Source of the DNA: Phenylobacterium sp.
Lineage (GTDB): Bacteria; Pseudomonadota; Alphaproteobacteria; Caulobacterales; Caulobacteraceae
Assembly (NCBI GenBank): GCA_018001015.1
Contig: JAGNIV010000008.1
Span: 81,232 to 145,231, forward strand
Direction: 5' to 3'
Length of the DNA: 64,000 nucleotides
The notes beneath the pieces are model-generated. The model ran no database searches and had not been told where the DNA came from. It saw nothing but the letters and a program-made list of their open reading frames with translations. Made by a program: the position numbers and the translations under genes. The stretch's first letter is position 1. Each line of letters starts with the position of its first letter. This document shows, piece after piece, positions 2,432 to 25,396 of the stretch.

Positions 2432-3118
2432 CTAGCAGGCGGCGCCGGTCCTGGCCTCGTGCTCCAAGACGGGGCGCACGACCTGCGTCCAAAGTTCGTA
2501 GCCGGCCGGCGTCATGTGCAGGCCGTCGGCGACGAAGATGTCCTTCGGCTGGCCGTTCTCCAGCATGGTGGGGACGACGTCGACCACCGTGAGGTCCGGG
2601 CGTTTGGCGGCCATGGCGCGAACCGCGTCATTGACCTGCGCCTGCTCGGCCAGCTGGGTGAAGCGCAGCTTCGAGGGCTTGAGCGTGATGAAATAGACCG
2701 TGACGGGGCCAAGGCGCATGTCCTTGAGGTCCATAAAGGCCTGGAAGTCGGCGGTGACCTCACCCGGGGTCTTCTTGGCCGCCCACAGGTCGTTCTCGCC
2801 GGCATAGAAGAAGATCGCGCGGGGGTGATAGGGCGTGACCACCTGGTCGAAATAGAGCGTCACGTCGGCGATCTGCGAGCCGCCGAAGCCGCGGTTGATC
2901 ACGGGATAGGGGGCCATGTCCTGGTCCAGCGTCTTCCAGAAACGGATGCTGGAGGAACCGGTGAACAGGAAACCGCAGGGCTTGGGCGGGGTCGCCTGGT
3001 CCAGCTCGGCGAAGCGGGCCAACTCGGGCGCGAACCGGTTCTCCGGCGGCGCGGCGGCGGCGGTGAGCGACAGCAGCGCGAGCGCCATGAGCGCGCGGCG
3101 CGTGAACGACCTGGGCAT
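2432..3118 (-). CDS. Exported SGNH/GDSL-family hydrolase
   Basis: A 228-residue esterase-like protein with an N-terminal signal peptide (MPRSFTRRALMALALLSLTA, cleavage probably near AAAAP). SGNH blocks are visible in order: FTGSSSIRFW (nucleophile about Ser56), GGSQI (79-83), GEND (107-110) and DGLHMTPAGY near the C-terminus with the Asp-x-x-His pair. These are secreted or periplasmic esterases and acyl hydrolases. It is the last gene of an operon after an exported alpha/beta hydrolase (27-base gap) and an outer-membrane barrel protein, suggesting that all three act at the cell surface or in the periplasm. Substrate not assignable. Confidence 0.85.
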   Translation of the reverse strand: MPRSFTRRALMALALLSLTAAAAPPENRFAPELARFAELDQATPPKPCGFLFTGSSSIRFWKTLDQDMAPYPVINRGFGGSQIADVTLYFDQVVTPYHPRAIFFYAGENDLWAAKKTPGEVTADFQAFMDLKDMRLGPVTVYFITLKPSKLRFTQLAEQAQVNDAVRAMAAKRPDLTVVDVVPTMLENGQPKDIFVADGLHMTPAGYELWTQVVRPVLEHEARTGAAC

Positions 3119-3145
3119 CGGCGAACTCCCTACTTTCGGGAGAGA

Positions 3146-3937
3146 CTACTGAGCGGGCTGGGACAGCGCCAGCAGGCGGTCGGTGCGTTTGGCCCAGCAA
3201 CAGGTGTGCTTCTCCGACCAGACAAGAACCTTCCCGCCCAGACGACGCGCGGACGCTTCGCTAAGCGCCGGGGGCACGACCTGATCGAAGCGGCCCAGGA
3301 CATGAAGCTGGACGACGCCCGGCGGCAGGGTGACATCGGCGGGATCAAGGGAGCCGGTGAGAGGGCTCGCGCCATGCCACTGCGCCCAGGCGGCGAGGTC
3401 CAGCGGCGCGGCGAGGGTGACGAGGACGGCGACATCGGTGCGCCGGGCGGCCACCAGGGCGGCCATGGTCCCGCCGCCGGACCAGCCCACCAGCCGCAGG
3501 CGCGCAGCGCCCGAGCGGCGCTTCAGGTCATCGATGGCGAGGCTGGAGGCGGCGACCGCAGCCTCTGAATAGCGGCCGGTCGTCCAGTCGGACGGGGTGC
3601 AGGCCGCGTCCTTCACATACTGGCAGGGACGCCCCAGCCAGGCCACCGGTCCCTGCGGCCAGGCCTGGGCGATGCGGAAGCCCAGGGGGTCCGCGGGCGT
3701 CGGGTCGGCGGACGGCCGGCCCTTGCGGTCGTGAGCGTTTCCGTCGCCCTCGATCACTACGGTGAGCAGGTCGCCCGTGGGTGACGAATCCTTCGAGGCG
3801 GCGGCGAGGATGCGGGAGCCCGCAACCACCTCGAAGGACGTCCAACCCCTGCCGGCGGGGCTGGCGCCGGCAGGGGCCGTCAGCAGGGAGACCAGCGCCA
3901 GGCCGAGGGCCGGAACAGACGCCAGTCGCCGCCGCAT
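3146..3937 (-). CDS. Exported alpha/beta hydrolase
   Basis: A 263-residue protein with a signal peptide (MRRRLASVPALGLALVSLLT, then APAGA). The nucleophile elbow GWSGGG places the catalytic serine at about residue 153, and a histidine follows in SEKHTCCW near the end. Several cysteines (CQYVKDAAC, HTCC) would suit disulfides in the periplasm. The layout resembles short polyester or peptide esterases, but the specificity is unknown. It starts 11 bases after the stop of the barrel gene and precedes the SGNH hydrolase by 27 bases, so the three make one transcription unit. Confidence 0.8.
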   Translation of the reverse strand: MRRRLASVPALGLALVSLLTAPAGASPAGRGWTSFEVVAGSRILAAASKDSSPTGDLLTVVIEGDGNAHDRKGRPSADPTPADPLGFRIAQAWPQGPVAWLGRPCQYVKDAACTPSDWTTGRYSEAAVAASSLAIDDLKRRSGAARLRLVGWSGGGTMAALVAARRTDVAVLVTLAAPLDLAAWAQWHGASPLTGSLDPADVTLPPGVVQLHVLGRFDQVVPPALSEASARRLGGKVLVWSEKHTCCWAKRTDRLLALSQPAQ

Positions 3938-3948
3938 CAGCTCTCTCC

Positions 3949-5376
3949 TCAGAAAGCCCGACGAAGGGTGAAGCCGAAGCTGGTCTCACCCTCGTTCTTC
4001 TTGCCGACCAGGGTCTGGATGTTGAAGGCCAGGGCCAGGTCGTCCGACAGCGGGGCGGCGAAGCCCGCGCCGATGTAGCCGTATTCCTTGTCGACGCCGG
4101 CCGGACCGTCGGTCTGGCTGTTGAAGCTGGCGCTGACATAGGGGAGCCAGTTGGAGCCGGTGAAGATCAGCGCCGTGCCGGCCTGGGCGATGGTCAGGTC
4201 GGTGGAATTGCCGGCGATCGGACGGCCGGCGTTGTCCCGGTAGGCGTCGGTGTCGGAGGTCGAGGCGATGACGCCCAGGCTGGGGGTCAGGACCCAGTCG
4301 GCGCCGAGATCGACGGTGGTCCCGATGCTCACCGAACCGAACAGCTGGTTGCGGTCGGTCTCGCCGAAGGAGCGCAGGAGCCCGGCGGTGCGGCCGTACT
4401 CGACCTCGTCATTGGAATAGCCCACCGTGCCGGTGATCTGGAAGGCGGGGCTCGCCGACCAGCTGGCATAGGCGCCGACCGTCCAGCCCTTGGTCTGATA
4501 GTCCACCGCCGCGCCGTCGAGCTGCATGGAGCCGTAGCCGACATAGGCGCCGAGCACGGTGCTGTCGAAGATCACGTCGCCGCCGATGGCGGCCGAGCCG
4601 CCCCAACCGTCCTGGGCCGAGCCCGGGCGGCTGTCATCGACATAGGAACCCGAGGCGTTGACCCACAGGCCGGTCTGCGGCTCGAAGGCGCCGGCGTTCA
4701 GGCCCTTGTAGACCCGGCCGTTGCGGGTCTGAGGACCAAGGCCCGAGGTCAGGCCAGCCAGGGACAGGCCCTGCAGGCGCTGGGCGACGAAGTTCTGCAT
4801 GCTGGTGGCGTTCACCCGCGTGCCGACCAGGGCCAGGAAGAGCTGGTCAGCCTCGGCCTGGGTGATGAGGGCCTGCTCGGGGACGGTCATGGTGATCACC
4901 GCGCCGGTGGAGGTGGTGACCGTGGTGGTGGTTCCGGCCGGCGTGGTCGTTGTCGTAATGGTCGCAGGCGTGGTGGGCGTCGTCGGCGGGGTGGGCGTGG
5001 TCGGGGTCGTCGGGGTAGTGGAGCCGCTGGACTGGCCGAAGGCCACCGCGCAGGCGCCCGAGCCGGTGACCGCCTGGGTCACGGTGTTGACCACGCAGTT
5101 GAAGGCCTCGGTGGTCCCGCCGGCGGCGATGGTGCCGGTGTAGGAGATGCTGGTGGCGCTGGGCACGATGCTGGTGAACTTCACCGTGGCGGGGTTGGCC
5201 GCATAGGGACCGCCCGAGATGTTGATGGTGATATTGTTCAGGCCCCCGACGGTGGTCACGATGGTCGTGCCGTCGGGCAGGGTGACCGTGCTGTTGGCCC
5301 CCTGGGCGTAGGCCGAGCCGGCCCCAAGGCCGAGGCTCAGCAGGAAGGCCGCGAAGGCGGCCGCAAGAAAGCGCAT
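3949..5376 (-). CDS. Outer-membrane beta-barrel (autotransporter-like) protein with Thr/Pro linker
   Basis: A 475-residue exported protein. Order: signal peptide (residues 1-24, ending SAYAQ); a roughly 90-residue beta-rich N-terminal domain with Cys94 and Cys109; a low-complexity Thr/Pro tract (about 117-160); a short helical stretch (about 165-205); then an antiparallel barrel to the end, finishing FTLRRAF with the C-terminal phenylalanine typical of proteins inserted by the BAM complex. The ATG at 5374-5376 starts the signal peptide directly; the 12 upstream codons do not resemble one. The passenger is very small for an autotransporter, so it may be a surface display or adhesion module. 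It heads the operon with two exported hydrolases. Confidence 0.8.
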   Translation of the reverse strand: MRFLAAAFAAFLLSLGLGAGSAYAQGANSTVTLPDGTTIVTTVGGLNNITINISGGPYAANPATVKFTSIVPSATSISYTGTIAAGGTTEAFNCVVNTVTQAVTGSGACAVAFGQSSGSTTPTTPTTPTPPTTPTTPATITTTTTPAGTTTTVTTSTGAVITMTVPEQALITQAEADQLFLALVGTRVNATSMQNFVAQRLQGLSLAGLTSGLGPQTRNGRVYKGLNAGAFEPQTGLWVNASGSYVDDSRPGSAQDGWGGSAAIGGDVIFDSTVLGAYVGYGSMQLDGAAVDYQTKGWTVGAYASWSASPAFQITGTVGYSNDEVEYGRTAGLLRSFGETDRNQLFGSVSIGTTVDLGADWVLTPSLGVIASTSDTDAYRDNAGRPIAGNSTDLTIAQAGTALIFTGSNWLPYVSASFNSQTDGPAGVDKEYGYIGAGFAAPLSDDLALAFNIQTLVGKKNEGETSFGFTLRRAF

Positions 5377-5811
5377 GTCGAGTATCCCCAAACTGGTGTG
5401 ACTTACCGTCACGCCTGCTCGACCACGGGGAGGCGGCGCCCCGCATGATCCATCCGGACTATGCGAGGCGGGAAACCGTAGATTGTGATGTCAGCGCACC
5501 CTGGCGCGGGTCTTCCCAGCCCCACGCAACCGAACGCCCCACAAATTGTTTGTCATGCTTACAAAATATGGGTCGGCGAAACGTGGCGCCTTGGGTGCGA
5601 TGCCTGACCTACAATCCGTTCGGCTGATCATGCCGGTTGCGGCGCAATAGCGTGGCGGCAACCCATGTCTTGGAAGATCTCGTGAGCGCCTGGGCGGGGC
5701 CGGGCAACGCCTAGTTCACGATGCGCTTAGACGGAATCGTCTGAGCGTTGAATGCTGATCTGATTTCAAAGTCATAGAGCCGGATTCAGGCTTCGAGAGA
5801 CGCCATCCGGC
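5377..5811. other. Intergenic region upstream of the barrel operon
   Basis: This 435-base gap has no convincing gene. It contains an AT-rich stretch around 5540-5575 that stands out in this GC-rich sequence and could carry the promoter of the leftward barrel operon, and a palindromic repeat at its right end (listed separately). A 60-codon reading frame on the plus strand (5445-5627) has no ribosome-binding site and no recognisable product and is not called. Confidence 0.5.
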
Positions 5812-5812
5812 T
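5721..5812. repeat. Palindromic intergenic repeat, two hairpins
   Basis: The first hairpin is CGCTTAGACG-GAAT-CGTCTGAGCG (5723-5746, one mismatch). The second is formed by AGCCGGAT near 5779 and ATCCGGCTT near 5805-5813. The spacing and the AT-rich link between the hairpins resemble the element at 9461-9555, so both may belong to one dispersed family; this is inferred from two copies only. It lies just 3' of the LuxR-hydrolase gene stop and may also act as its terminator. Confidence 0.6.
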
Positions 5813-7512
5813 TAGACCCGCGCCAGCCAGGCCATGGCCTCAGGCCAGTGCTTATGGGCCAGGAAGCGTCCGATGCCCGGGTAGACACGGGTGGATTCCA
5901 CGTGGTCGCCCAGCCAGGCCTGGACCTCTTCGACCCCGTTCATCGGATCCTGGTCGCCGTGCCAGAGGGTGACGGGGCAGGCGAGGTCCGAGAGGTCGGG
6001 CGCTGCGGATTTGGCGGCGCAGCGGATGGCGTCGGCCGCGCCGCGGGCGCTGACCGCCACCGACTCGCGTGTATAGTCGATGATGAAGTCCAGCAGTTCT
6101 GGGTGGGCCTTCAGATAGGCCGCGTCGCCGGGGGCCGAGGCTGCGGCGCGGGCATAGCGCTCGAACTGGGCCCGGCTGAGGCTCAGCCGCATCATCTCGA
6201 AGATCATGTCCGACAGCCACGGGTTGCGATAGATGCGCCGCCAGAACAGGGTCAGCTTATGGCCCTGGTCACGCTCCCGCTCCGCCTGAAGGCCCGGCGG
6301 ACGTCCCGAGGCCAGCAGGATGCGGGTGACCGAATCCCCCAGTTGCACGGCGGCCTCCATGGCGTAGGCCGCCCCGTCGGTGTTGGTGGTGATCTGCAGG
6401 CCGTCGATCCCCAGATGCCGGATCAGGGCCACGGAGTCGGCGGCGACATTCGCGTAGGTGAAGTCCGGGTGCGGATCGGATCGCCCCGCCCCCGCCCGCT
6501 CGGTGGCGATCATCCGCAGGCCCAGATCGCGGGCCAGGGCGTTGGTCCCCCGCGGCAATAGACTGGACGAAAGGTCCTGGGTGATCACCAGCACCGGCCG
6601 TCCGGCGGGATCGCCATAGTCTCGCCAGGCCAGGCGGCGGCCGTCGGCGAGCTTGAACAGCTGGACCGGCGGCGCGGTCTCGGCCGCCGCCCGCTCGGTG
6701 GCGACGATGGCGCCGCCGAGCGGGCGGTGTCCGCCGGCTGGGTCCTCGAAGGCCTGGGCCAGGGCGCCGAGCTGGGTCAGGGCCCTCACCAGCTCGCTCT
6801 GCCGGTTTAGGCCCATCTTGTCGAAGACGGCGCGCAGCTGGTTGCGCACCGTGTTCAAACTGACATCCAGGTCGTCGGCGGCCTCCTTCAGGCTGAGGCC
6901 ATCCTTCAGTCGCGCCGCCAGCCGGGTCTCGGCCGGGGTCAGGCCGAAGCTCTCGCGGACGCTGGCCCACAGGCGGTCGGTGGTTTCGACCGCCGGAAAC
7001 ACGATGGCGATGTCGCCCTCCCCGCGCGGCGACGGCTGCGGCAGGGTGGCGGCCAGGCCGGGCGGCAGGGCCGCGGCGGGCGTCACATAGGCGAAGTGCG
7101 GGCCTTCGTCCTCCTCGTCGAGGAACTTGACGATCACCTGCCGGCCGCGGGTTTCGCGCAGGCGCTTGCGCGCCTGGGTCAGGGCCTCGTGGTTGGAGGG
7201 GTTGAGGAAGGACAGGCCTCGGGCCTCGATGTGGCCCAGCCGATGCTTGAACAGGCGCTCACCGGCGGGGTTGCAGGCCGCCGCCCCACCCGATCCGGCG
7301 ACCACGATGACGCCCACAGCGGCCCGCTCGCCACCGCCCGCCGCCGCGCGGGCCAGGTTGGTCATGCCCTCGGTCCGCAGGGGCGCCTCGCCGTCCTGGG
7401 CCGGCACGTCCAGGGCTTCGATCACCTCTTCCCAGCGCTCGGGATCGGCGGCGACGGCGTACATCGTCTCGATCACCAGAGAGACATTGGCCTTGGACTG
7501 GGCGGCGGACAT
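5812..7512 (-). CDS. LuxR-family regulator fused to a degenerate alpha/beta-hydrolase domain
   Basis: A 566-residue two-part protein. Residues 1-180 resemble the PAS-like sensory front of LuxR-type regulators. Residues about 188-248 are a clear LuxR helix-turn-helix (FGLTPAETRLAARLKDG, then SLNTVRNQLRAVFDKMG). Residues about 285-566 have an alpha/beta-hydrolase layout, but the catalytic positions look lost: the nucleophile elbow reads T376-N-T-D-G380 with Thr378 where Ser belongs, the oxyanion HG is replaced (ITQDLSSS), and the GxGH histidine position reads GIGRF. An acid motif remains (WHGDQDP). The hydrolase half is therefore probably a ligand sensor rather than an enzyme (inference). It is a single gene with no partner on the same strand. 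Confidence 0.8.
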   Translation of the reverse strand: MSAAQSKANVSLVIETMYAVAADPERWEEVIEALDVPAQDGEAPLRTEGMTNLARAAAGGGERAAVGVIVVAGSGGAAACNPAGERLFKHRLGHIEARGLSFLNPSNHEALTQARKRLRETRGRQVIVKFLDEEDEGPHFAYVTPAAALPPGLAATLPQPSPRGEGDIAIVFPAVETTDRLWASVRESFGLTPAETRLAARLKDGLSLKEAADDLDVSLNTVRNQLRAVFDKMGLNRQSELVRALTQLGALAQAFEDPAGGHRPLGGAIVATERAAAETAPPVQLFKLADGRRLAWRDYGDPAGRPVLVITQDLSSSLLPRGTNALARDLGLRMIATERAGAGRSDPHPDFTYANVAADSVALIRHLGIDGLQITTNTDGAAYAMEAAVQLGDSVTRILLASGRPPGLQAERERDQGHKLTLFWRRIYRNPWLSDMIFEMMRLSLSRAQFERYARAAASAPGDAAYLKAHPELLDFIIDYTRESVAVSARGAADAIRCAAKSAAPDLSDLACPVTLWHGDQDPMNGVEEVQAWLGDHVESTRVYPGIGRFLAHKHWPEAMAWLARV

Positions 7513-7577
7513 GCGGACCTTTGGGGGCTGGACCGGGGAGGATCAGCTTACACGGCGCGGGCCGAACGCAAGCCTCC

Positions 7578-8054
7578 CTATTCGGACGTGATCAGGGCCG
7601 CCCTGGCCCCGAGCGCCGTGACGAGGTCGGCGGGGGCCAGGTGCGCCTGCAGGCCGCGCTGGCCGGCGTTGACGAAGACCTGATCGTGGGCGAGCGCGGC
7701 CTCGTCCACCACGGTGGGGACGAGGCGCTTCTGGCCGAACGGGCTGACCCCACCAACCCGGTAGCCGGTAAGCCGCTCGGCGTCGGCGGGTTTCATCATC
7801 GCCGCGGCCTTGCCGCCGAACACCGCCGCCAGCCTCTTCATCGAGACCTCCTGGTCCGACGCCAGCACCGCGCAAACCGGTTTGCCGTCCACCTGGGCCA
7901 TCAGGGTCTTCAGCACCCGGGCCGGATCGGCGCCCAGGCTCTCGGCGGCCTGCAGCCCCACCCGGCCCGCGTCGGGGTCGTAGTCGTAGGTGTGCAGGGT
8001 GAAGGCGACGCCGGCCTTGCGCAGCGCCAGGGTCGCGGGAGTGGTCTTGGCCAT
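7578..8054 (-). CDS. ybaK: YbaK/EbsC-type Cys-tRNA(Pro) deacylase
   Basis: A 158-residue single-domain protein of the YbaK/ProX editing family, which hydrolyses Cys-tRNA(Pro) made in error by prolyl-tRNA synthetase. Typical signatures are the N-terminal TTPATLALRKAGVAFTLH, the lysine-bearing ARVLKTL, GYRVGGVSPFGQK and VFVNAGQRGLQ near the C-terminus. The length fits the family (about 155-160). The ATG at 8054 gives the standard MxKTTPA start; an alternative start lies three codons upstream. It is a single gene between the LuxR-hydrolase gene and a divergent exported unknown. Confidence 0.88.
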   Translation of the reverse strand: MAKTTPATLALRKAGVAFTLHTYDYDPDAGRVGLQAAESLGADPARVLKTLMAQVDGKPVCAVLASDQEVSMKRLAAVFGGKAAAMMKPADAERLTGYRVGGVSPFGQKRLVPTVVDEAALAHDQVFVNAGQRGLQAHLAPADLVTALGARAALITSE

Positions 8055-8105
8055 GGCGCGCAAGCTAGCTGGACGGCGCGGGCTTGAGAATGCGAGACGA
8101 GGGTC

Positions 8106-8714
8106 ATGCGCCTGCTTCTCTTGCTCTCCGCCCTCGCCTTCGCCGCTCCCGCCGCGGCCCAGGAGGTTCCCATCACTTACGGCGTCTTCATGCGCAAATT
8201 GATGGAAGTTCAGGCCCTCGACGCCGAACTCCTAAGCCGTGACAGTGCGACGGCCACGCTTCAGCGTTGGTGCGATGCGCACGGCCCCGGCGGCGAGACC
8301 AAGATCGTGGCGCGGCGAATCCTTGGTGCGAACAAGGAGCCAGGCAAGGTCGAGCGCCGTTCTCTTGGGGTCTTCGCCCGCACCCCCGTGGCCTATCGGC
8401 GTGTCCAACTGCTCTGCGGAGACAAGGTGCTTTCGGAGGCCGACAATTGGTACGTGCCCGCCCGCCTGACGCCGGCCATGAACAGCACCCTTGCGCAGAC
8501 ACAGACGCCGTTCGGAGTGGCGGTGAGGCGGTTGAACTTTAGACGCCGGACATTGTCGTCCGACGTTCTGCTTCTCAAGAATCTGAACCTTGAGCGGCCG
8601 GGTGTTCCCCACGAGGTGCTGCGCCACCGCGCCGTCCTCTCCACCCCCAATGGCCGGCCGTTCAGCCTGGTCGTCGAGACCTATACCGACCAGCTCCTGG
8701 TCACCCCGCCCTGA
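8106..8714 (+). CDS. Exported protein of unknown function
   Basis: A 202-residue protein with a clear signal peptide (MRLLLLLSALAFAAPAAAQ). The mature part begins EVPITYGVFMRKLMEVQALDAE and contains two cysteines spaced for a disulfide (RWCDAHG and LLCGDK). The second half is beta-rich (PFGVAVRRLNFRRRTL, PFSLVVETYTDQLLV). I recognise no family. A GAGACGAGG stretch precedes the ATG. It is followed after 59 bases by another exported unknown on the same strand, but the two show no clear sequence similarity. Confidence 0.7.
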   Translation: MRLLLLLSALAFAAPAAAQEVPITYGVFMRKLMEVQALDAELLSRDSATATLQRWCDAHGPGGETKIVARRILGANKEPGKVERRSLGVFARTPVAYRRVQLLCGDKVLSEADNWYVPARLTPAMNSTLAQTQTPFGVAVRRLNFRRRTLSSDVLLLKNLNLERPGVPHEVLRHRAVLSTPNGRPFSLVVETYTDQLLVTPP

Positions 8715-12360: not shown

Positions 12361-13023
12361 ATGAAGACGATCGCGGTGCTGTCCCACAAGGGTGGGGCGG
12401 GAAAGACGACGGTGGCGGTGAACCTGGCCATCGCCTGGCGGGCGCTGGGCGCACGCACCATCCTGGCCGACGCCGATCCTGTCCGCAGCGCGTCCGACAG
12501 CCTGCGCAAGCGAGCCGACCACAGCGCCCTGGTGGTGGAAACCTCGGCGGCCAAGCTCGACGCCCTGGCCTATGTCAGCGGCAAGGGCGGCTGCGACGTG
12601 CTGATCATCGACACCCCCGGCGGCCCCGACAACGGCATGATCGAGGCCATGAAGGTGGCCGACCTCTGTATCGCGGTCTCCCGCCCCACCTATCTGGACG
12701 TCGCCGCCACCCTGCGGACCGTCGATGTCGTGCGCCGGCTGGGACGCCAGGGGGTGGTGCTGTTCAATCAGTGCCCGCCCCGCCGCAATGGCCTGGAATC
12801 GGCCGTGGTCAGCGGAACCATGGACGTTCTCCGGCGGGGTGGACTTGAAGTCTGCCCCCTGGCCCTGCAGGCGCGGGCCGCCTACCAACGGTCCATCGCC
12901 CAGGGCCAGGGGGTCGGCGAATACGAGCCGGGCGGCAAGGCCGACGCGGAGATCGCCGGCCTGCTGGCCTACATCCAGGACAAGACCATCGGCGCGAACC
13001 GCGACCGGGCCGCCAACGACTGA
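12361..13023 (+). CDS. ParA-family ATPase without a ParB neighbour
   Basis: A 220-residue P-loop ATPase with the deviant Walker A KGGAGKTT (residues 10-17), an ILADADP segment and the Walker B-like DVLIIDTPGG. ParA/MinD-family proteins move or position cargo (DNA, protein clusters) by ATP-driven binding to DNA or membrane. There is no parB, plasmid origin or capsid gene nearby, and no N-terminal HTH, so this is a small orphan ParA. It could position a protein complex, or partner a factor elsewhere. The next gene downstream (13102) encodes a small basic protein on the same strand. Role unknown. Confidence 0.85.
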   Translation: MKTIAVLSHKGGAGKTTVAVNLAIAWRALGARTILADADPVRSASDSLRKRADHSALVVETSAAKLDALAYVSGKGGCDVLIIDTPGGPDNGMIEAMKVADLCIAVSRPTYLDVAATLRTVDVVRRLGRQGVVLFNQCPPRRNGLESAVVSGTMDVLRRGGLEVCPLALQARAAYQRSIAQGQGVGEYEPGGKADAEIAGLLAYIQDKTIGANRDRAAND

Positions 13024-13101
13024 GCCCTTGGAACAGGTCGTGACGCCGATTTCCGCCCCATGAACGCCGCATCGGGTTAGGATCTTGATCTCCGGAGGAC
13101 G

Positions 13102-13275
13102 ATGACCATGGCCGACGAAGACCCGCCCGCCGAAACCCCGATCCAGCGCGCCCTGCGCCTGAAGAAGGAGGCGCTTGACGCCAAGCCGAAGGACCCGCGC
13201 GGCGGGCGCTTCCAGCGGGAACGCGCCGCGGCCGCCAAGTCGTCGTCGAAATCCAAGCCCTGGATGGCGCGCTAG
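13102..13275 (+). CDS. Small basic protein of unknown function (57 aa)
   Basis: A 57-codon gene with a strong ribosome-binding site (CCGGAGGA, 3-4 bases before ATGACCATG). The protein starts MTMADEDPPAETPIQRALRLKKEA and ends KSSSKSKPWMAR: an acidic N-terminus, a helical basic middle (KPKDPRGGRFQRERAAAAK) and a Ser/Lys tail, with no membrane segment. It might bind nucleic acid or partner the ParA-like ATPase 78 bases upstream (speculative). Its stop TAG overlaps the stop of the convergent gene. Confidence 0.65.
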   Translation: MTMADEDPPAETPIQRALRLKKEALDAKPKDPRGGRFQRERAAAAKSSSKSKPWMAR

Positions 13276-13466
13276 GCGTCGTCGCCGGCTTCCACGACGC
13301 CGCGCAGATGGGCGAGGAATTCGTCCCGCTCGGTCTGGGTGAAGGCCTGGCCCAGTTCCTGGGTGGCCTCGGCCAGACTGTACTTTCCGTCGCTGAAGCG
13401 CAGCAGCACGCTTTCGATATAGCGGTCGAGGAGGACGCGGTCGGGGCCGGCGAGATCGTGGGTCAT
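13272..13466 (-). CDS. Small helical protein of unknown function (64 aa)
   Basis: A 64-residue protein, MTHDLAGPDRVLLDRYIESV to EAGDDA, predicted helical and acidic, with no signal peptide. AAGGTGG lies 5 bases before the ATG. It follows the desulfurase gene by 62 bases on the same strand and could be the third gene of the selD operon, although nothing in its sequence ties it to selenium. Convergent stop codons with the 57-residue gene share CTAG. Confidence 0.55.
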   Translation of the reverse strand: MTHDLAGPDRVLLDRYIESVLLRFSDGKYSLAEATQELGQAFTQTERDEFLAHLRGVVEAGDDA

Positions 13467-13528
13467 GACGCCACCTTGCGCCCGCTCCCGATCAGGCGCC
13501 ATGCGCTGGATCAATTGGCCGGCACGCT

Positions 13529-14641
13529 CTAGCCCAGGACGTCCGCCAAGCGGCGGACGACGGTGTCGATCTCCCCGGCCGTCGTGCCGCGGCCGAGGCT
13601 GAAGCGGATCGCCCCCATTCCGACCTCGGGCGGCACGCCCATGGCCCGCAGCGTCGGGGACAGCTCCACGAGGCCCGCGTGGCAGGCCGAGCCGGTGGAC
13701 GCGGCGACCTCCGGCAGCAGCGCGAGGATCTCGGCGCCGACCCGGCCCACGAAGCTGACATTGAGGGTGTTGGGCAGCCGATGCTCGGGGTGTCCGTTCA
13801 GCGCCACGCGGTTCCCGAACTGGGTCTGCAAACCCGCCCACAGCGTGTCCCGCAGGTCCTGGACGCGGCGCATCGGCGCGAGGTCAGCCGCCAGGGCGCA
13901 GGCCTCGCCCAGCCCCGCCGTCAGCAAGGCGCTCTCCGTCCCCGCCCGGCGCCCGGCTTCATGTCCGGCGCCGTGGATCAGCGGCTCCAGCGCGACGCCA
14001 CGACGGACATAGAGGGCGCCGACCCCCTTGGGGGCGTAGAGCTTGTGGCCGGCGATGGACAGCAGGTCGACGCCGAGCTGGTCCGTCGCCACCTTGCCGA
14101 CCGACTGGGCCGCGTCGGTGTGGAAGAGCACCCCGCGGTCGCGCGCGACCTGGGCGCAGGCGGCGATGGGCTGGAGGGTCCCGGTCTCATTGTTGGCGTG
14201 CATGAGGGTGACCAGGATGGTGCGCGGCGTGATCGCCCGCGCCAGGGCCTCGGGATCGACGAGGCCCTGGCGATCCACCGGAAGGTAGGTGACCTGGCCG
14301 CCCAGGCGTTCGAGGAAGGCGCAGACCTCAAGGACGGCGGGATGCTCCGCGGCGCTGGTGACGATGTGGTCGCCCCGGTCGCGGTGGGCGAAGAACACCC
14401 CCTTGATGGCCAGGTTGTTGGCCTCGCTACCGCCGCTGGTGAAGACGATCTCGTCCGGCTCGGCGCCCAGCAGGTTCGCCACCTTGGCGCGGGCCAGCTC
14501 GACGGCCTCGCGCGCCGGGACCCCGGCCCAGTGGCCGCTGGACGGGTTGCCGTGGGCGGTCTCCAGCAGCGGCGCCATGACGGCGGCGACCCGTGGATCG
14601 ACCGGGGTGCTGGCGTTGAAGTCGAGATAGATGCGGTCCAT
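13529..14641 (-). CDS. Cysteine desulfurase / selenocysteine lyase-like (NifS family)
   Basis: A 370-residue PLP-dependent aminotransferase-fold enzyme. Lys200 in SIAGHK binds PLP, His100 (SAAEHPAV) stacks on it, and Cys320 in STGSACHAG is the persulfide-forming residue on a mobile loop. It releases sulfur from cysteine or selenium from selenocysteine. It starts at ATG 14641, 11 bases after the selD stop, in the same operon, and opposite selU. The context argues that it delivers selenium to SelD rather than serving general Fe-S assembly. The host's main IscS would be elsewhere. Confidence 0.88.
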   Translation of the reverse strand: MDRIYLDFNASTPVDPRVAAVMAPLLETAHGNPSSGHWAGVPAREAVELARAKVANLLGAEPDEIVFTSGGSEANNLAIKGVFFAHRDRGDHIVTSAAEHPAVLEVCAFLERLGGQVTYLPVDRQGLVDPEALARAITPRTILVTLMHANNETGTLQPIAACAQVARDRGVLFHTDAAQSVGKVATDQLGVDLLSIAGHKLYAPKGVGALYVRRGVALEPLIHGAGHEAGRRAGTESALLTAGLGEACALAADLAPMRRVQDLRDTLWAGLQTQFGNRVALNGHPEHRLPNTLNVSFVGRVGAEILALLPEVAASTGSACHAGLVELSPTLRAMGVPPEVGMGAIRFSLGRGTTAGEIDTVVRRLADVLG

Positions 14642-19489: not shown

Positions 19490-19990
19490 ATGATGGACGT
19501 AGATCCTTTCAATGCGGCTTCGGATCCGAGCTTCTTCGACGGCCGGCTGATGATCGATATCCTGGCTTGGAATTGGAACCTGCGGGTTGCGACCAACCAG
19601 ACGCTGGCGCGGTCGAAGGCGCGATCCCCAGGCCTGGACTATGGTCGCGACTTCACCATCCACGGCCGCGTCCGCGCGCCCCGCGAGCTTCGCGGCAAGG
19701 AGATGAAGGTGACGCTGTCGCCGTTTGGCCCGACGGTACGCTTTGGACAGAGAGGCCTGCAGCAGGTGGGCGCCCTGGCAGAGCTTCCCTCAGGCTCCGA
19801 CTTCGACTTTGAGGCGATGCTGATGTTGCCCGAAGACGCGATCACCTCCACCGCGACCTCTTTGGCGTTGGCATGGAAGTATCTCCAGATCCGAGTCGGC
19901 GACGGCGGTCTCGGCAGCACGAGCATCGTCGCCTACGGCTTCCACGGCCGCATTCACCCAAATCTTGAAGCCTGGGCGAATGCTGACTGA
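19490..19990 (+). CDS. Unknown protein A of a tandem paralog pair
   Basis: A 166-residue protein, probably cytoplasmic, with no recognised family. The core (about residues 50-150) contains DFTIHGRVRAPRELRGKEMKVTL, AELPSGSDFDFEAMLMLPEDA and ALAWKYLQIRVGDG. The same pattern appears in the next gene: GRV-AP-x-L-x-G-x-x-M, then ELP-G, then [LI]P-[EK]-DA, then a W-x-x-L segment. The two genes are therefore diverged tandem copies. No strong ribosome-binding site precedes the ATG (a second ATG follows at 19493). The composition is less GC-biased than the neighbours, which hints at acquisition. Confidence 0.6.
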   Translation: MMDVDPFNAASDPSFFDGRLMIDILAWNWNLRVATNQTLARSKARSPGLDYGRDFTIHGRVRAPRELRGKEMKVTLSPFGPTVRFGQRGLQQVGALAELPSGSDFDFEAMLMLPEDAITSTATSLALAWKYLQIRVGDGGLGSTSIVAYGFHGRIHPNLEAWANAD

Positions 19991-20429
19991 AGCCCGACAA
20001 GACTTTCTCATCGAGCTGCGTGGCTACGACGGCGGACTTGGTCTCATGCCTTGCCCGCCCTCAGTCCCGAAGGCGCATCGTTTTCAAGGCGGTCTGATCT
20101 ACTCCCGAATGATCGAAATCGAGGGTCGTGTGGTTGCTCCTGAAGGCTTGGCCGGCCGCCGAATGCGCATCTGGCTAGACCAACTGGAGAGCTGGCACTT
20201 CAGTCAAGGTGAGCCGCCCCACATCGGCGACATCTGCGATCGCGCGGGGGAACTTCCCGGCGGCGGCCTGGAGACCACGCTCCACATTCCAAAAGATGCG
20301 TGGCCCACGGCTGTCAGTTGCCTGGGTACAGTCTGGCGGCGCCTCAACTTGACCGGAGCCGATGGCGACGGTCGAAGCATGAGGCTCATCGATTTCTCAT
20401 TCTCGTCGGACGGTGCGCAGCTTCCTTGA
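19980..20429 (+). CDS. Unknown protein B of a tandem paralog pair
   Basis: A 149-residue protein whose ATG overlaps the end of gene A by 11 bases, so the two are translated together. The core IEIEGRVVAPEGLAGRRMRIWL, AGELPGG, LHIPKDAWPTAV and GTVWRRLNL aligns with gene A along its length, with low identity but matching landmarks. No signal peptide, membrane segment or known motif. An upstream TTG (19965) would give a longer form; the ATG is preferred. Function unknown; the arrangement would suit a pair of subunits or an effector and partner. Confidence 0.6.
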   Translation: MLTEARQDFLIELRGYDGGLGLMPCPPSVPKAHRFQGGLIYSRMIEIEGRVVAPEGLAGRRMRIWLDQLESWHFSQGEPPHIGDICDRAGELPGGGLETTLHIPKDAWPTAVSCLGTVWRRLNLTGADGDGRSMRLIDFSFSSDGAQLP

Positions 20430-20654: not shown

Positions 20655-20773
<119 letters not shown>

Positions 20774-20808
20774 GGAGACGTCTGGAGGCTCCCTGAAGGG
20801 GGCCCGCC

Positions 20809-20899
20809 GAGCGAGGGCGGAACCTACTCATACGGCCCCGGCCACGCAAGCCCATGTCGCCGCGACTTTTCAGTCCTCGGCGGGGAGCACCACGACGCC
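20809..20899. repeat. Left direct repeat, containing a fragment of the rraA 3' end
   Basis: Two blocks are shared with 24851-24928: 21 bases at 20809-20829 and 30 bases at 20870-20899. On the minus strand the second block encodes GVVVLPAED followed by stop, the exact C-terminus of the intact rraA-like gene at 24899-25396. The reading frame upstream of the fragment is unrelated. This is therefore a broken copy of the gene end left beside tRNA-Ser. Confidence 0.8.
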
Positions 20900-20953
20900 C
20901 GAAACAAGAAAACCCTTGCCGCCTAGGGTCGGGTTTCGTTCATTAGCGAGGCT

Positions 20954-21607
20954 ATGGATGGGGGCGGAATGGAACTCTTCTCGCGCCTGCGACATGCCGC
21001 AGGCCCGGCTCTTTCGATTGTACTGGCGCTGGCCGTCGCCGCCGGTCCGGCCGCCGCCCAAGGCGACACCGATCAGACCGCAGTTGGGGGCGTGCTTGGA
21101 GGCTTTTTGGCGGGTCGCCTGGCCCCGAAGGCGAAACCCGCCGCCGGAGCTACGGTCGCCCAGCCGGCGGCAGACGAACGCCGCGCCGCCTACACCCAGC
21201 TCTGCGCAGCCGGTCGCGAGAAGCTTAGCCTCGCCACCTGCGCCTCCATGAGACGCGACCTCGACCGGGCGGCGACCGACGAGATTTCCACCGCCTATCG
21301 GCAGTTCTGCACGCCGGGGGCGGAGACGCTTAGCAAGGCCACCTGCGCCGCCATGCGCGTGGATGCGGGCCTGGGACCAGCTCCGCCGGGCAGTGCGAGC
21401 GCCAGGACCGCGGCTCGGGCTAGCGCCGCGCCCTCCGCGCCCCAGACGCCGGCGCGCCCTACCCGCGCCACGGAACTGAGCGACGCCTATGCCGAACTAT
21501 GCGCGGGGCCCGCGCCGCAGGTCAGCACCGAGACCTGCGCGGCCCTGAAGGCCGACGCCGCCAGCACACCGAAACCCAAGCCCAAGGCCGAGCGGAAGGT
21601 ATTCTAG
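20954..21607 (+). CDS. Exported protein with three copies of a two-cysteine micro-domain
   Basis: A 217-residue protein with an N-terminal signal peptide (hydrophobic stretch to about residue 36, ending AAAQ) and a small glycine-rich segment GGVLGGFLAG at 45-54. Three copies of one motif follow, at residues 80-102, 115-137 and 179-201: Y-x-x-[LF]-C, 11 residues, C-x-x-[ML]-[RK]-x-D. Each copy has two cysteines 12 apart, suited to a disulfide. The same motif opens both downstream proteins. Ala/Pro linkers separate copies 2 and 3. A second ATG at 20969 is an alternative start. The next gene begins 3 bases after the stop. I recognise no family for the motif. Confidence 0.7.
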   Translation: MDGGGMELFSRLRHAAGPALSIVLALAVAAGPAAAQGDTDQTAVGGVLGGFLAGRLAPKAKPAAGATVAQPAADERRAAYTQLCAAGREKLSLATCASMRRDLDRAATDEISTAYRQFCTPGAETLSKATCAAMRVDAGLGPAPPGSASARTAARASAAPSAPQTPARPTRATELSDAYAELCAGPAPQVSTETCAALKADAASTPKPKPKAERKVF

Positions 21608-21609
21608 GC

Positions 21610-23190
21610 ATGAGACCTCTCTTGCTCGTCTTGGCCCTGCTCGCTCTGGTGGCCGCCCCGGCATCGGCACAGATGGCCTCGCCCGCCAAGCTGCAGGGCG
21701 TCTATGAACGCCTCTGCACCGGCTCCGGTGCCGCCAGCGACGCGACCTGCACGGCGATGCGGCGGGACATGGACGCCGCTTCTAAGGGCCGACTCGAGAC
21801 TGGGCCCGGATGGTCCGGGATTGTCATAGAGGACATTCACTATGCGATTCCTGCCGTCGTTCCAGGCGGGCCTGCCGACCGCGCAGGCGTCCGCGGTGGG
21901 GACACGGTTATCGCGGTTAACGGCCAACCCGTCACCGACACCACCGCCTTCAACAGGATGGTCGCTGATACCGCGCCAGGTCGCCGGATCAATCTGCGAC
22001 TGCGGCGGGGTGGAGCCCTTCTAGACCTGCCGGTGACGCTTGCGTCAGAGCCGACGCCGAACCCCAAGCTCAACAGCCAACGCACTGAGCCCCGCGTGCG
22101 CCCGCTGTGGAGGAGCTACCCCATCACCTTTGACAGCATACGAGTCGGCGAGGCCTTCGATGGGATCATCGAGACGACCGATGCAGGCGAGGGCGGGGCT
22201 CGGGGAGATTGCATCGAAGTTGTTGGTGCGGGAGCCGCCAGGAATTTGAAGGCAGTGCTCATTCCGAATGCTCCGGACCAAGCGAGGTATGGACAGCAGA
22301 TGAGACTGTACGCGATGCAGGATCGATGCGGCTTGGAGGGCAGCTCTACGGGCGCAGCAAGCGACCCAGACGCAAAGACACCGTTTTCACTCTTTTTCGC
22401 GACCCAACCGGTCGGCAAAACCTTCCTGATGGTCATGGGCCGGCCCAGCTCCAAGCCCTACCAGCTGATCGTCCGGGAGCAGACGTCCCAGGACATGGAG
22501 GCGTGGGCAGCGCAGAAGCGCGAACGAGAGCTTGCGCAGCGCCACGCCGATGAGGCGCGAAACCGGGCCGCTCAGGACCGCGCCGAGATGTTTGGCCTGC
22601 TGATGCAGGGCGCCGTTGCGGTCGGGCAGGGCTATGCGGCGGGGATGCAGGAGGCCAACGAGGCCAACGCCCGGTCCCAGGCCATCATCGACCAGGCCGC
22701 CGCCGCCGATCGGCGGTACTTTGAGGCCCAAAGGGCGGCCGAGCTGGCCCAGCGCGCCGGCTCCCAGCCCACCCCACAGGTTCGGCAGGCTCAGGCGCCA
22801 GAGGCGCCACCGACGCCGCGCATGCCCGCCCCCGGCGATGGCCTAGGCGCTACAAGACCGCGGGCCCCGGCTACGTCGCAGGCCAGCCTGATCTCCCGCA
22901 CCACCCGCGCCTACTTCACCACCGGGATCGCCCCGACCGCGAAGAACACCCGCAATCCGCTCTGCTACAGCACCCCCTTCAGCATCACCTTCCAGCACAA
23001 GCCGCAAGAGGGATACGGCGAGATCGCGCAGGCGGCGGCGGCCGCCCACGTCCAGACCTTCCTGGCCAAGTGCGCGCAGTTCGGACGGCTCGACCCCGGC
23101 CCTCCCCCCAGGGCCAACATCGAAGGCTTCACCAGCGGCTGGCCCTATCCCAGCCTTCACGCCGAAGACAGACAGGTCAGGGTGCCTTAG
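21610..23190 (+). CDS. Exported PDZ protein with micro-domain and PPC-like domain, paralog 1
   Basis: A 526-residue protein: signal peptide 1-20 (ending ASA), one two-cysteine micro-domain (Y32, C36, C47, M50, R51, D53), a PDZ domain at about 67-145 (AVVPGGPADRAGVRGGDTVIAVNGQPV), and a beta-rich domain at about 165-305 resembling pre-peptidase C-terminal (PPC) modules (SIRVGEAFDGIIE to PYQLIVREQ). After that come a charged helical stretch and an Ala-rich segment (QEANEANARSQAIIDQAAAADRR), a Pro/Gln linker, and a unique C-terminal domain with two cysteines (RNPLCYSTPF, FLAKCAQFG). No protease catalytic residues are evident. The second paralog follows directly. Probable periplasmic scaffold or chaperone (inference). 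Confidence 0.7.
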   Translation: MRPLLLVLALLALVAAPASAQMASPAKLQGVYERLCTGSGAASDATCTAMRRDMDAASKGRLETGPGWSGIVIEDIHYAIPAVVPGGPADRAGVRGGDTVIAVNGQPVTDTTAFNRMVADTAPGRRINLRLRRGGALLDLPVTLASEPTPNPKLNSQRTEPRVRPLWRSYPITFDSIRVGEAFDGIIETTDAGEGGARGDCIEVVGAGAARNLKAVLIPNAPDQARYGQQMRLYAMQDRCGLEGSSTGAASDPDAKTPFSLFFATQPVGKTFLMVMGRPSSKPYQLIVREQTSQDMEAWAAQKRERELAQRHADEARNRAAQDRAEMFGLLMQGAVAVGQGYAAGMQEANEANARSQAIIDQAAAADRRYFEAQRAAELAQRAGSQPTPQVRQAQAPEAPPTPRMPAPGDGLGATRPRAPATSQASLISRTTRAYFTTGIAPTAKNTRNPLCYSTPFSITFQHKPQEGYGEIAQAAAAAHVQTFLAKCAQFGRLDPGPPPRANIEGFTSGWPYPSLHAEDRQVRVP

Positions 23191-24729
23191 ATGAGACCTG
23201 CTGTGCTCGTACTGGCCCTGATCGCTCTGGTGGCCGCCCCGGCATCGGCACAGATGGCCTCGCCCGCCAAGCTGCAGGGCGTCTATGAACGCCTCTGCAC
23301 CGGCTCCGGCCCCGCCAGCCCCGCCACCTGCGCGGCGATGCGGCGGGACATGGACGCCGCAGGCCCTTCGGTGTCCCAGGGCTGGCTTGGGTTCACGCCG
23401 GGCAAGGTCAGTGACGGGCTCGCCGGCGCCTATGTCTACAGCGTGTGGCCTGGCGGACCCGCCGAAGCCGCGGGGATCCGACCCGGAGATCGCGTGATCG
23501 CGGTGAACGGAAGGACGGTTAGCGACGGCACCACGGTGAAAGCGGCTCTCGAGGGCGCGGAGGCTGGACGGCGCGTCACTCTTAAGCTGATGCGCGGCAC
23601 CATAACCCGTGACGTCCCTGTCACCTTGGGCGTCACCCCTGTCCTGGGCCCGACCCTGAATGCGTCCCGAAAGGACAGGAAGCCTGGCTCATTCTGGCGT
23701 CAAACGGCCCCAACTCTCGACACGATTCGCCTGGGTGAGGTGATGCAGGGTCTTCTCGAAAGCAGCGACGGCGAGACGGTCCATGGCTGGGGTTGGCGCG
23801 CGGACTGCCTGGAAATTTCCACGCCTGCGGAAACACAAAACCTGCGTGTGCGGGTCACGGGAACGGGCTCGCCGATGTGGGTGATGATCCAATACGACAG
23901 CTGTGGCGAAGGCCCCTCCTACTCACCGGGCACGCATCTTGATATCTCCGGAGTCTCTGAGTTTGAACTTGCCGCCGTCGCAGGTCGCCGTACGTTTCTC
24001 TATATCCCAGGCAAACCATCACCCCAGCCGTACTACATCTATGTACGAGAACAGACGCCGCTGGAGACGGTCGCCTTCCGCGAAAGGTTGCGACAGGCCG
24101 CGGTAATCGAGCAGCAGCGTCGGGCGAATGAGGCCCGGGCGGCTGAGGACCGCGCCGAGATGTTCGATCTTCTGATGCAGGGCACCGTCGCCGTCGGGCA
24201 GGGCTATGCGGCCGGGATGCAGGAGGCCAACGAGGCCAACGCCCGGTCCCAGGCCATCATCGACCAGGCCGCCGCCGCCGATCGGCGATACCTTGAGACT
24301 CAACGAGCGGCCGAGCTGGCGCGGCAGGCGGCGTCCCGCCCCCAGGCCGGGACGCCTGTTCAGCAAGGCCAAGCGCCGGTGCGTCGAGCGCCGCCGACAG
24401 CGGCCGCGGCGCCCCCGGCGCCCGCCCAGAGACAAGCCGCATCTAGCGTTTCAAAGCCGACGTCCGCGACACCAGCCGGTGCGGGCGCCGCGCGTGACTG
24501 CAAGAAGGTTAGCCAGGTCCGCTACATCGACTATGACTCCAACCAAAGCATGGCCCATGCTCGGGAGACCACCGAAGGGCGGTACGCCGCCATGTGCAGC
24601 CGGGCAGGCTGGTCTTGCGGCGCGATCTCCTGCAAGCAGGAGAAATGGGGATCTCGCTGGCTCTATAGCTGTTCTGCCCCCGCCCGCGAGGAAGTCACCT
24701 TCTGCGACTCGAAGGTTTCATCGGAGTGA
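23191..24729 (+). CDS. Exported PDZ protein with micro-domain and PPC-like domain, paralog 2
   Basis: A 512-residue paralog whose ATG follows the previous stop with no gap. The architecture is the same: signal peptide 1-20, micro-domain (Y32 to D53), PDZ about 64-147 (SVWPGGPAEAAGIRPGDRVIAVNG), PPC-like domain (TIRLGEVMQGLLE to PYYIYVREQ), helical Ala-rich stretch, and Pro/Ala linker. The C-terminal domain is different: seven cysteines (DCKKVSQVRY, MCSRAGWSCGAISCKQ, YSCSA, TFCDSK), probably a disulfide-rich fold. DNA of the signal and micro-domain segment is identical to paralog 1 over 88 bases, while the PDZ and PPC regions have diverged strongly. This suggests fast change or exchange in the middle and end. 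Confidence 0.7.
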   Translation: MRPAVLVLALIALVAAPASAQMASPAKLQGVYERLCTGSGPASPATCAAMRRDMDAAGPSVSQGWLGFTPGKVSDGLAGAYVYSVWPGGPAEAAGIRPGDRVIAVNGRTVSDGTTVKAALEGAEAGRRVTLKLMRGTITRDVPVTLGVTPVLGPTLNASRKDRKPGSFWRQTAPTLDTIRLGEVMQGLLESSDGETVHGWGWRADCLEISTPAETQNLRVRVTGTGSPMWVMIQYDSCGEGPSYSPGTHLDISGVSEFELAAVAGRRTFLYIPGKPSPQPYYIYVREQTPLETVAFRERLRQAAVIEQQRRANEARAAEDRAEMFDLLMQGTVAVGQGYAAGMQEANEANARSQAIIDQAAAADRRYLETQRAAELARQAASRPQAGTPVQQGQAPVRRAPPTAAAAPPAPAQRQAASSVSKPTSATPAGAGAARDCKKVSQVRYIDYDSNQSMAHARETTEGRYAAMCSRAGWSCGAISCKQEKWGSRWLYSCSAPAREEVTFCDSKVSSE

Positions 24730-24827
24730 GGATCTAAGAGCCGCGCGAACCCAGACCAGCGGCGGATCGACTGAACCACCCTTAAAGACAGGGATGAGTT
24801 GTTGTCGCAGTGGGCCAGCCGTCTGAG

Positions 24828-24845
24828 GCCCCCTTGAGAGGGGGC
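24828..24845 (-). terminator. Hairpin downstream of rraA
   Basis: GCCCCCT (24828-24834) and AGGGGGC (24839-24845) form a 7-bp stem with a TGAG loop, 53 bases beyond the rraA stop on its own strand. No T-run follows. A weaker version of this hairpin (CCCTGAAGGGG) stands at the matching place in the left repeat. Confidence 0.4.
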
Positions 24846-24850
24846 TCACA

Positions 24851-24928
24851 GAGCGAGGGCGGAACCTACTCCTCGCGCCTTGCGGCCTGGGCCAGGCCTC
24901 AGTCCTCGGCGGGGAGCACCACGACGCC
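24851..24928. repeat. Right direct repeat, including the true rraA 3' end
   Basis: This is the partner of 20809-20899: 21 identical bases at 24851-24871 and 30 at 24899-24928, separated here by 27 rather than 40 bases. The 30-base block is the genuine last nine codons and stop of rraA. The two copies bracket the three-gene cassette, 4,029 bases apart. Confidence 0.8.
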
Positions 24929-25396
24929 GTCCGGATCGGCGTGCAGGACGTCGCCGGGGACGAAGACCACGCCGCCGAAGGCCACCGGGGTGTCCACCAC
25001 GCCCTCGCCGCGCTTGACGCTGCGGATCGGGACCGAACCCAGGGCCTTCACGCCGATATCCAGCGTCTCCAGGATCGGGGTGTCGCGGACGGCGCCGTAG
25101 ACCACGACACCCGCCCAGCCGTTCTTCACCCCGTCGGCGGCGAGCACGTCGCCCACCAGGGCCTTGGCCAGGGAGCCGCCGCCGTCCACCACCAGGACGC
25201 AGCCCTCGCCGGGTTCGGCCAGGGTGGCCTTCACCAGGGAATTGTCCTCCCGGCAACGGACGGTGCGGATCGGGCCGGAGAAGGCCTTGCGGCCGCCGTA
25301 GTCGCGGAACTGGACGAGGCAGACCTCGACCTCGTCCTCGTGGTCGTCGCAGAGGTCGGCGACGCTGCGGGCGGGCTTCTGGGCGGGATTGTTCAT
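24899..25396 (-). CDS. RraA-like protein (oxaloacetate decarboxylase/HMG aldolase or RNase E inhibitor family)
   Basis: A 165-residue RraA-fold protein: SVADLCDDHEDEVEVC start, AFSGPIRTVRC, EDNSLVKATL, VLVVDGGGSLAKALVGD (the glycine-rich binding loop), GAVRDTPIL and a VVVLPAED end. Members either inhibit RNase E or act as metal-dependent aldolases or decarboxylases on oxaloacetate and 4-hydroxy-4-methyl-2-oxoglutarate. The Arg-Asp pair in GAVRD is the usual catalytic feature. Its ATG overlaps the stop of the acyl-CoA synthetase gene (ATGA), tying it to acyl-CoA metabolism and favouring an enzymatic role. The 3' end is duplicated at 20870-20899. Confidence 0.85.
   Translation of the reverse strand: MNNPAQKPARSVADLCDDHEDEVEVCLVQFRDYGGRKAFSGPIRTVRCREDNSLVKATLAEPGEGCVLVVDGGGSLAKALVGDVLAADGVKNGWAGVVVYGAVRDTPILETLDIGVKALGSVPIRSVKRGEGVVDTPVAFGGVVFVPGDVLHADPDGVVVLPAED

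Follow-up and report, generated by a model that had tools for sequence, protein, structure and literature searches.

A three-gene cassette of apparently exported proteins, most likely a recent gain, between an RraA-like gene and tRNA-Ser(CGA) in Phenylobacterium

Genomic islands and integrative elements that sit at the 3' ends of genes or tRNAs duplicate the 3' end of the gene, and the gene itself stays intact. Several species commonly harbor small variable segments that have direct repeats at their base; 66–94% of those repeats are shorter than 30 bp (PMC2884548). Duplications at foreign junctions have also been created in other bacteria by transformation with partly homologous fragments (PMC3784515). 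The insertion that we report here is of a known type, and such events have already been described. At this locus a segment is present or absent at a conserved junction and is accompanied by short direct repeats, with a 30-bp exact core and longer arms.

In the window, the whole stretch of 64,000 nucleotides that was analysed, three genes lie between a tRNA-Ser(CGA) and an RraA-like gene (Table 1). The sequence-only reading had described this block as standing beside tRNA-Ser and framed by two direct repeats made from the 3' end of its other neighbor, and comparison of the flanks bore this out. The 30-base core of the repeat is identical in both copies (30/30) and comprises the nine terminal codons and the stop of the RraA-like gene (PF03737), which is intact on the right side only. 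When up to 3 mismatches were allowed, 100 shuffles gave 0 matches. The repeats placed at 20809 and 24851 were likewise recovered, with exact copies of GAGCGAGGGCGGAACCTACTC starting at both positions, and the arms proved longer than had been noted. Each arm consists of the RraA-like tail and a leader of tRNA-Ser(CGA), spanning 20774–20899 on the left and ~24817–24928 on the right. The right leader aligned to the left leader with a score of 80, against a resampled null with a mean of 26.9 (sd 4.9) in which 0 of 1000 reached that value. The stretch from the stop codon to GAGTAGG, which is 41 nt long in the left arm and 27 nt in the right, is hardly alignable, and the remainder of the leader is ~86% identical over 55 nt. 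An alignment for a tRNA remnant behind the right leader scored no better than shuffles (1131 of 2000 reached the same score), and a terminator-like match on the minus strand at 20930–20911 was not above shuffles either (3 found, shuffle mean 3.0). When the 181-bp left region was searched against the own genome, just two strong places were returned (E 2.7e-90 and 3.0e-11), the next-best match being 41 bp at 80% (E 0.001); the repeat is therefore not dispersed, and that reading was ruled out.

Table 1. Features of the inserted segment and its flanks (window positions).
Feature	Position	Strand	Basis
tRNA-Ser(CGA), one flank of the insertion site	20684..20773	-	ARAGORN
Native tRNA-Ser leader, left arm	20774..20869	-	blastn to L040 and alignment
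Orphan left copy of the RraA-like tail	20870..20899	-	30-base exact match
Start of inserted segment, upstream of P1; L040 without counterpart	20900..20953	+	comparison with L040
P1, 217 aa	20954..21607	+	
P2, 526 aa	21610..23190	+	
P3, 512 aa; P2 paralog, C-terminus differs	23191..24729	+	
End of inserted segment; no L040 counterpart, no tRNA remnant detected	24730..24816	+	
Right arm: diverged tRNA-Ser leader copy, no tRNA after it	24817..24898	-	
Right 30-base copy, genuine 3' end of the RraA-like gene	24899..24928	-	
RraA-like gene, other flank of the insertion site	24899..25396	-	PF03737, E 2.2e-42

The insert contains P1–P3, short spacers and no further gene. That no integrase lies inside, as had been stated, agrees with this content, and a crude motif scan of the window for tyrosine recombinases returned none. 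The three open reading frames are intact and nearly abutting. P1 has an apparent signal peptide and three Cys-pair motifs, and it matched no Pfam family. P2 has an apparent signal peptide, a single Cys-pair motif, a PDZ domain (E 2.4e-13), a central region, a helix block and a C-terminus of its own; P3 has a single Cys-pair motif and a PDZ domain (E 6.1e-15). Signal peptides were called by eye. The C-termini of P2 and P3 differ from each other, and neither matched a Pfam family. Judged from these sequences, P1–P3 apparently form a tight operon of modular, exported proteins.

Searches of Pfam and NCBIfam (E up to 1) found no protease family in P2 or P3 beyond PDZ-region matches, and the NCBIfam Deg matches covered the PDZ part only, far under the cut-off. 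The predicted structure of P3 was poor (mean pLDDT 53.4, pTM 0.32); its elements are a helical hairpin bearing the Cys pair, the PDZ domain, a beta sandwich, a helix 90 residues long and a small domain at the C-terminus. When this model was searched with Foldseek, PDZ proteins ranked first; at rank 32 was 5sv5, a pre-peptidase C-terminal (PPC) domain (E 1.2e-4, TM-score 0.73 by target length), which weakly suggests that the beta sandwich of the model is PPC-like. PHROGs gave a match to the PDZ part only, and no paper combining Phenylobacterium and PDZ domain was found in the literature. As far as the libraries and literature were searched, the cargo family is undescribed. As the proteins appear exported and disulfide-pinned, with PDZ and PPC-like domains and no protease domain, they may be a periplasmic peptide-binding scaffold or adaptor whose specificity varies between paralogs. 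In such a scaffold, disulfide-pinned hairpins and long helices would keep P1–P3 together, exported proteins would be bound by their peptide tails through the PDZ domains, and differences in specificity would come from the PPC-like and C-terminal domains.

Searching with full-length P3 was dominated by PDZ domains, found in 122 of 199 family genomes, and the PDZ domain was therefore omitted from later searches. The genomes of L039, L040 and L041 gave just weak PDZ-region matches when searched with P3. The central region of P3 was found in 2 of 101 genus genomes (best candidates scored, up to 25 per genome) and in 3 of 390 family genomes (best candidates scored, up to 6 per genome), the own genome included in each count; the other two family genomes carry it at different loci. 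A profile of this region, A2, matched 1 of 385 genomes sampled from the class, the window's own. A related module is present at a different locus in G011, and it consists of a P1-like three-hairpin protein (48% identical to P1 over the aligned part), a second Cys-pair protein and a P3-like protein, with no flanking direct repeat of at least 20 nt. One related gene is present in G157. With the Cys-pair profile, hits at E 0.001 were obtained in 8 of 388 family genomes, and several of these hits were weak. A phage or plasmid origin was also considered and rejected, since no matches for the cassette parts were found in the phages, plasmids and viral contigs searched: the C-terminal 368 aa of P3 matched no plasmid, P2 matched no phage, and the viral contigs gave 53 pattern stretches for the central region of P3, with 0 confirmed.

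When the 101 genus genomes were queried with the left arm and tRNA, L039, L040, L041 and G225 were the best after the own genome, and the closest named relatives at the locus are Phenylobacterium records. None of these four carries the cassette: the RraA-like stop and tRNA-Ser are separated by 100 nt in L039, 99 nt in L040 and 89 nt in L041, and the gap between the RraA-like gene and tRNA-Ser in G225 is ~101. The flanks of L040 are syntenic with the window at ~90–94% over most of the region (93.6% by blastn over 20680–20899, the left leader with its flanks), and a counterpart is absent for 20900–24816. A single stretch of 124 bp in L040 (10469–10592) is matched by both flanks of the insert. 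Compared by eye, L040, L039 and L041 depart from the 30-base core at 2 to 4 positions.

The locus was inspected in 46 of the 96 genomes that matched the left arm and tRNA, namely the 30 best, G035 and other chosen ones. The sequence-only reading had suggested looking for relatives in which the RraA-like gene adjoins tRNA-Ser, and for other cargo at the same junction; both were found. The RraA-like gene lies up to 220 bp from tRNA-Ser in 14 of the 46 genomes. In 12 others a PaaI-like thioesterase gene occupies the junction and the RraA-like gene is 552–581 bp from tRNA-Ser, and in G035 this distance is 1720 bp, with a 1.6-kb insert and two further tRNA-Ser copies with genes in between. In the remaining 18, the upstream bases examined did not reveal an RraA-like gene. 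The cassette was at the junction in the window's own genome only. Because its contents differ among the 46 genomes inspected, we regard the junction as variable. Neither of the outcomes that had been named as speaking against the earlier proposal, a cassette shared by all relatives and a dispersed repeat, was encountered.

Other features of this neighborhood were noted in passing. The PaaI-like thioesterase gene, named by eye, is at the RraA-like/tRNA-Ser junction in L042–L045 and L049–L052, which belong to another subclade. In L132 (the locus of G035), at positions 2889–8384, the RraA-like gene has three copies of tRNA-Ser(CGA) downstream. A GFA-like gene and a small open reading frame precede the first copy, a PLP decarboxylase lies between copies 1 and 2, and a two-part membrane-like open reading frame lies between copies 2 and 3. 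Related genomes (G110, G126, G141, G007 and G281) have a single tRNA-Ser, ~102–119 bp from the RraA-like gene. L047, from another Phenylobacterium, encodes a tyrosine recombinase at 12496–13596 (PF00589, E 3.3e-10), ~1.8 kb from the same tRNA-Ser on its 3' side, and no repeat of the tRNA 3' end was seen in the stretch examined. In the window, two small paralogous open reading frames lie by tRNA-Ser at 19490–20429; they are 31% identical to each other (E 6e-12), are present in L135/L040 at 68% and 86%, and matched no Pfam family.

The cassette genes differ from their surroundings in composition, with GC3 of 0.79 for P1, 0.79 for P2 and 0.75 for P3 compared with 0.88–0.95 in seven neighboring genes. 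Low GC3 alone is not proof of a foreign origin, because the two small open reading frames across tRNA-Ser from the cassette, both present in L040, are also low (0.77 and 0.66). Together, the empty sites, the block missing from L040, the low GC3 and the rarity of the P3 central region indicate that a recent gain of the cassette at a variable locus is most likely.

The two arms bear on how the segment might have entered. At fourfold sites, six flanking genes diverge from L040 by 0.15–0.26 for both lineages together, and the right leader looks too diverged for a duplicate made after the gain. It probably came in already diverged, to judge from this comparison. If the copy had been made after the split from L040, so much divergence would not be expected in the leader, nor an unchanged orphan left tail, which has no evident function. 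With a leader that looks too diverged and an orphan tail still identical, the right leader would have been diverged on arrival and the crossover would have been in or beside the tail. A donor of the right leader was not found: other genomes offered at best 79–86% over ~50–65 nt, in tRNA-Ser leaders, and the right leader scored highest against the leader of L041 (106), with 93 against the own left leader, a small difference.

The explanation that we favor, at somewhat better than even confidence, is the recent gain of a 3.9-kb operon segment (20900–24816), with exported-scaffold cargo, which entered with or by means of a diverged leader. We hypothesize that the three-gene segment came in between the RraA-like gene and tRNA-Ser(CGA), and that a diverged copy of the tRNA-Ser leader accompanied it or served for joining. 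The joining crossover would have occurred within the final 30 bases of the RraA-like gene or immediately beside them, in our preferred reading with the help of homology: possible routes are RecA acting on a short homology, a circular intermediate that enters by one crossover, and homology-facilitated illegitimate recombination. The direct repeats would then be the scar of the joining event, and a precise loss could follow through the same repeats. Both gain rather than loss and the route of entry are inferred; a precise deletion through the repeats would produce an identical empty site, and this would count against a gain.

Among the possible routes, a site-specific recombinase is less likely, because the insert contains none, the core is variable in relatives and the G011 module is free of repeats. 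The proposal would be of a small element without an integrase, trans-mobilised or decayed, whose attP mimics the RraA-like end and leader, so that the 30 bases are the core and the arms attL and attR; we consider it unlikely. It would be in keeping with the exact core, with the RraA-like gene being intact on one side only and with the abrupt switch to diverged sequence directly after the core. The tyrosine recombinase (PF00589) of L047, within 2 kb of the same tRNA-Ser, indicates that this neighborhood is used by integrases; however, it is on the opposite side of the tRNA. In the window, the motif scan gave no recombinase-like open reading frame, and the mismatches in the core of L040, L039 and L041 also speak against an att site. 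On the cassette side, moreover, the repeat runs on as a diverged tRNA leader. Among the 101 genus genomes the P3 central region is otherwise in G011 only, at another locus without flanking repeats of at least 20 nt, and the insert of G035 has no significant leader copy beside its RraA-like gene (252 and 155 of 1000 resampled reached the two scores). Thus, of the earlier proposal of an element that integrates at the 3' end of a gene by way of att sites, the insertion and the variable content of the site stood, and att-type integration found no support as it had been stated. Given the lack of a recombinase in the motif scan, the variable core, the continuation into the leader, the repeat-free G011 module and the lack of a significant leader copy in G035, a simple decayed integrative element is no more than possible.

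It is also conceivable, and in our view quite improbable, that tail and leader were duplicated in place through a staggered break or slippage, that the cassette was captured between the copies, and that the right leader, driving no tRNA, then decayed. Such a history would be in keeping with arms that span the same segment and with the lack of a tRNA after the right copy, yet the orphan left tail should have decayed like the right leader and is 30/30 identical, and fourfold divergence from L040 is just 0.15–0.26. Very improbable is an ancestral cassette that recombination across the repeats removed from the relatives: a deletion from one 30-base copy to the other would recreate their arrangement exactly, and losses of this kind through short repeats are reported (PMC2884548), but many independent losses would be needed for a P3 central region found in 2 of 101 genus genomes, the second of them elsewhere. 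Assembly might have joined different strains into a chimera at the 30-base repeat, given that the nearest genomes were assembled from metagenomes and that 77 contigs make up the own genome, but this too is very improbable, since both flanks match L040 in order and two separate wrong joins would be required.

P2 and P3 are a mosaic, in which near-identical N-terminal and helix blocks enclose saturated PDZ and PPC regions. The fourfold sites at which the two differ are 4 of 35 for residues 1–57, 23 of 30 for the PDZ part, 19 of 24 for the central part and 7 of 31 for the helix block (319–382); their C-termini share 18%. The helix block is also kept in G157, and homology between the C-termini of P2 and the G157 protein was not found. 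The pattern resembles that of recombination or conversion acting in conserved blocks that flank diversifying modules, such that the tandem paralogs would swap parts at those blocks.

The favored recent gain could be extended to a broader proposal, speculative and given little credence here, in which the RraA-like/tRNA-Ser(CGA) junction is a capture site where compact cargo is gained together with leader copies by a leader-based route. That route would use the tRNA leader and not the usual tRNA 3' end, and the window and G035 would be two of its products. The cargo family would diversify by exchanging PDZ and PPC domains and C-termini between its conserved blocks.

The window and L040 provide a clear before-and-after pair for the recent gain of a segment that carries no mobility genes, and a scar with identical and diverged parts limits the possible routes of entry. 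The cassette encodes a modular, apparently exported family that is rare, being seen in 3 of 390 family genomes, and two blocks stay nearly constant between its tandem copies. Because constant blocks surround binding domains that are saturated with changes, the diversification of envelope proteins is testable here.

Compared with known systems, P2 and P3 resemble HtrA/Deg proteins in having a PDZ domain of the HtrA type, and differ from them in that no trypsin-like protease domain was found and the other domains differ. The cassette is also unlike the anti-phage defence systems in PADLOC, with 0 families matched by P1–P3 at E up to 0.1. With regard to polymorphic toxins, which pair a toxin domain with an immunity gene, the C-termini of P2 and P3 differ and gave no Pfam hit, and beyond P1–P3 the insert holds no gene. 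Integrative elements at the 3' ends of genes share with this locus a duplicated 3' end, an intact gene beside the insert and an empty site in relatives. Here, in contrast, no integrase was seen in the insert, which lies 5' of the tRNA, a further, diverged leader is present, related cargo elsewhere is repeat-free, and the same or related elements were not found at the same site (2 of 101 genus genomes have the P3 central region, with G011 carrying it elsewhere). Merodiploid formation and homology-facilitated illegitimate recombination (PMC3784515) can similarly give a duplicated segment at the junction of foreign DNA from a partly homologous donor, although they concern laboratory strains of other bacteria and large duplications and the process here is inferred from a scar alone. 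The small variable segments covered in PMC2884548 differ in that the repeats here are a gene tail and a tRNA leader, part identical and part diverged. With those segments this locus shares a short presence/absence segment at a conserved junction with no mobility gene, direct repeats at its base and a site that is empty in other genomes.
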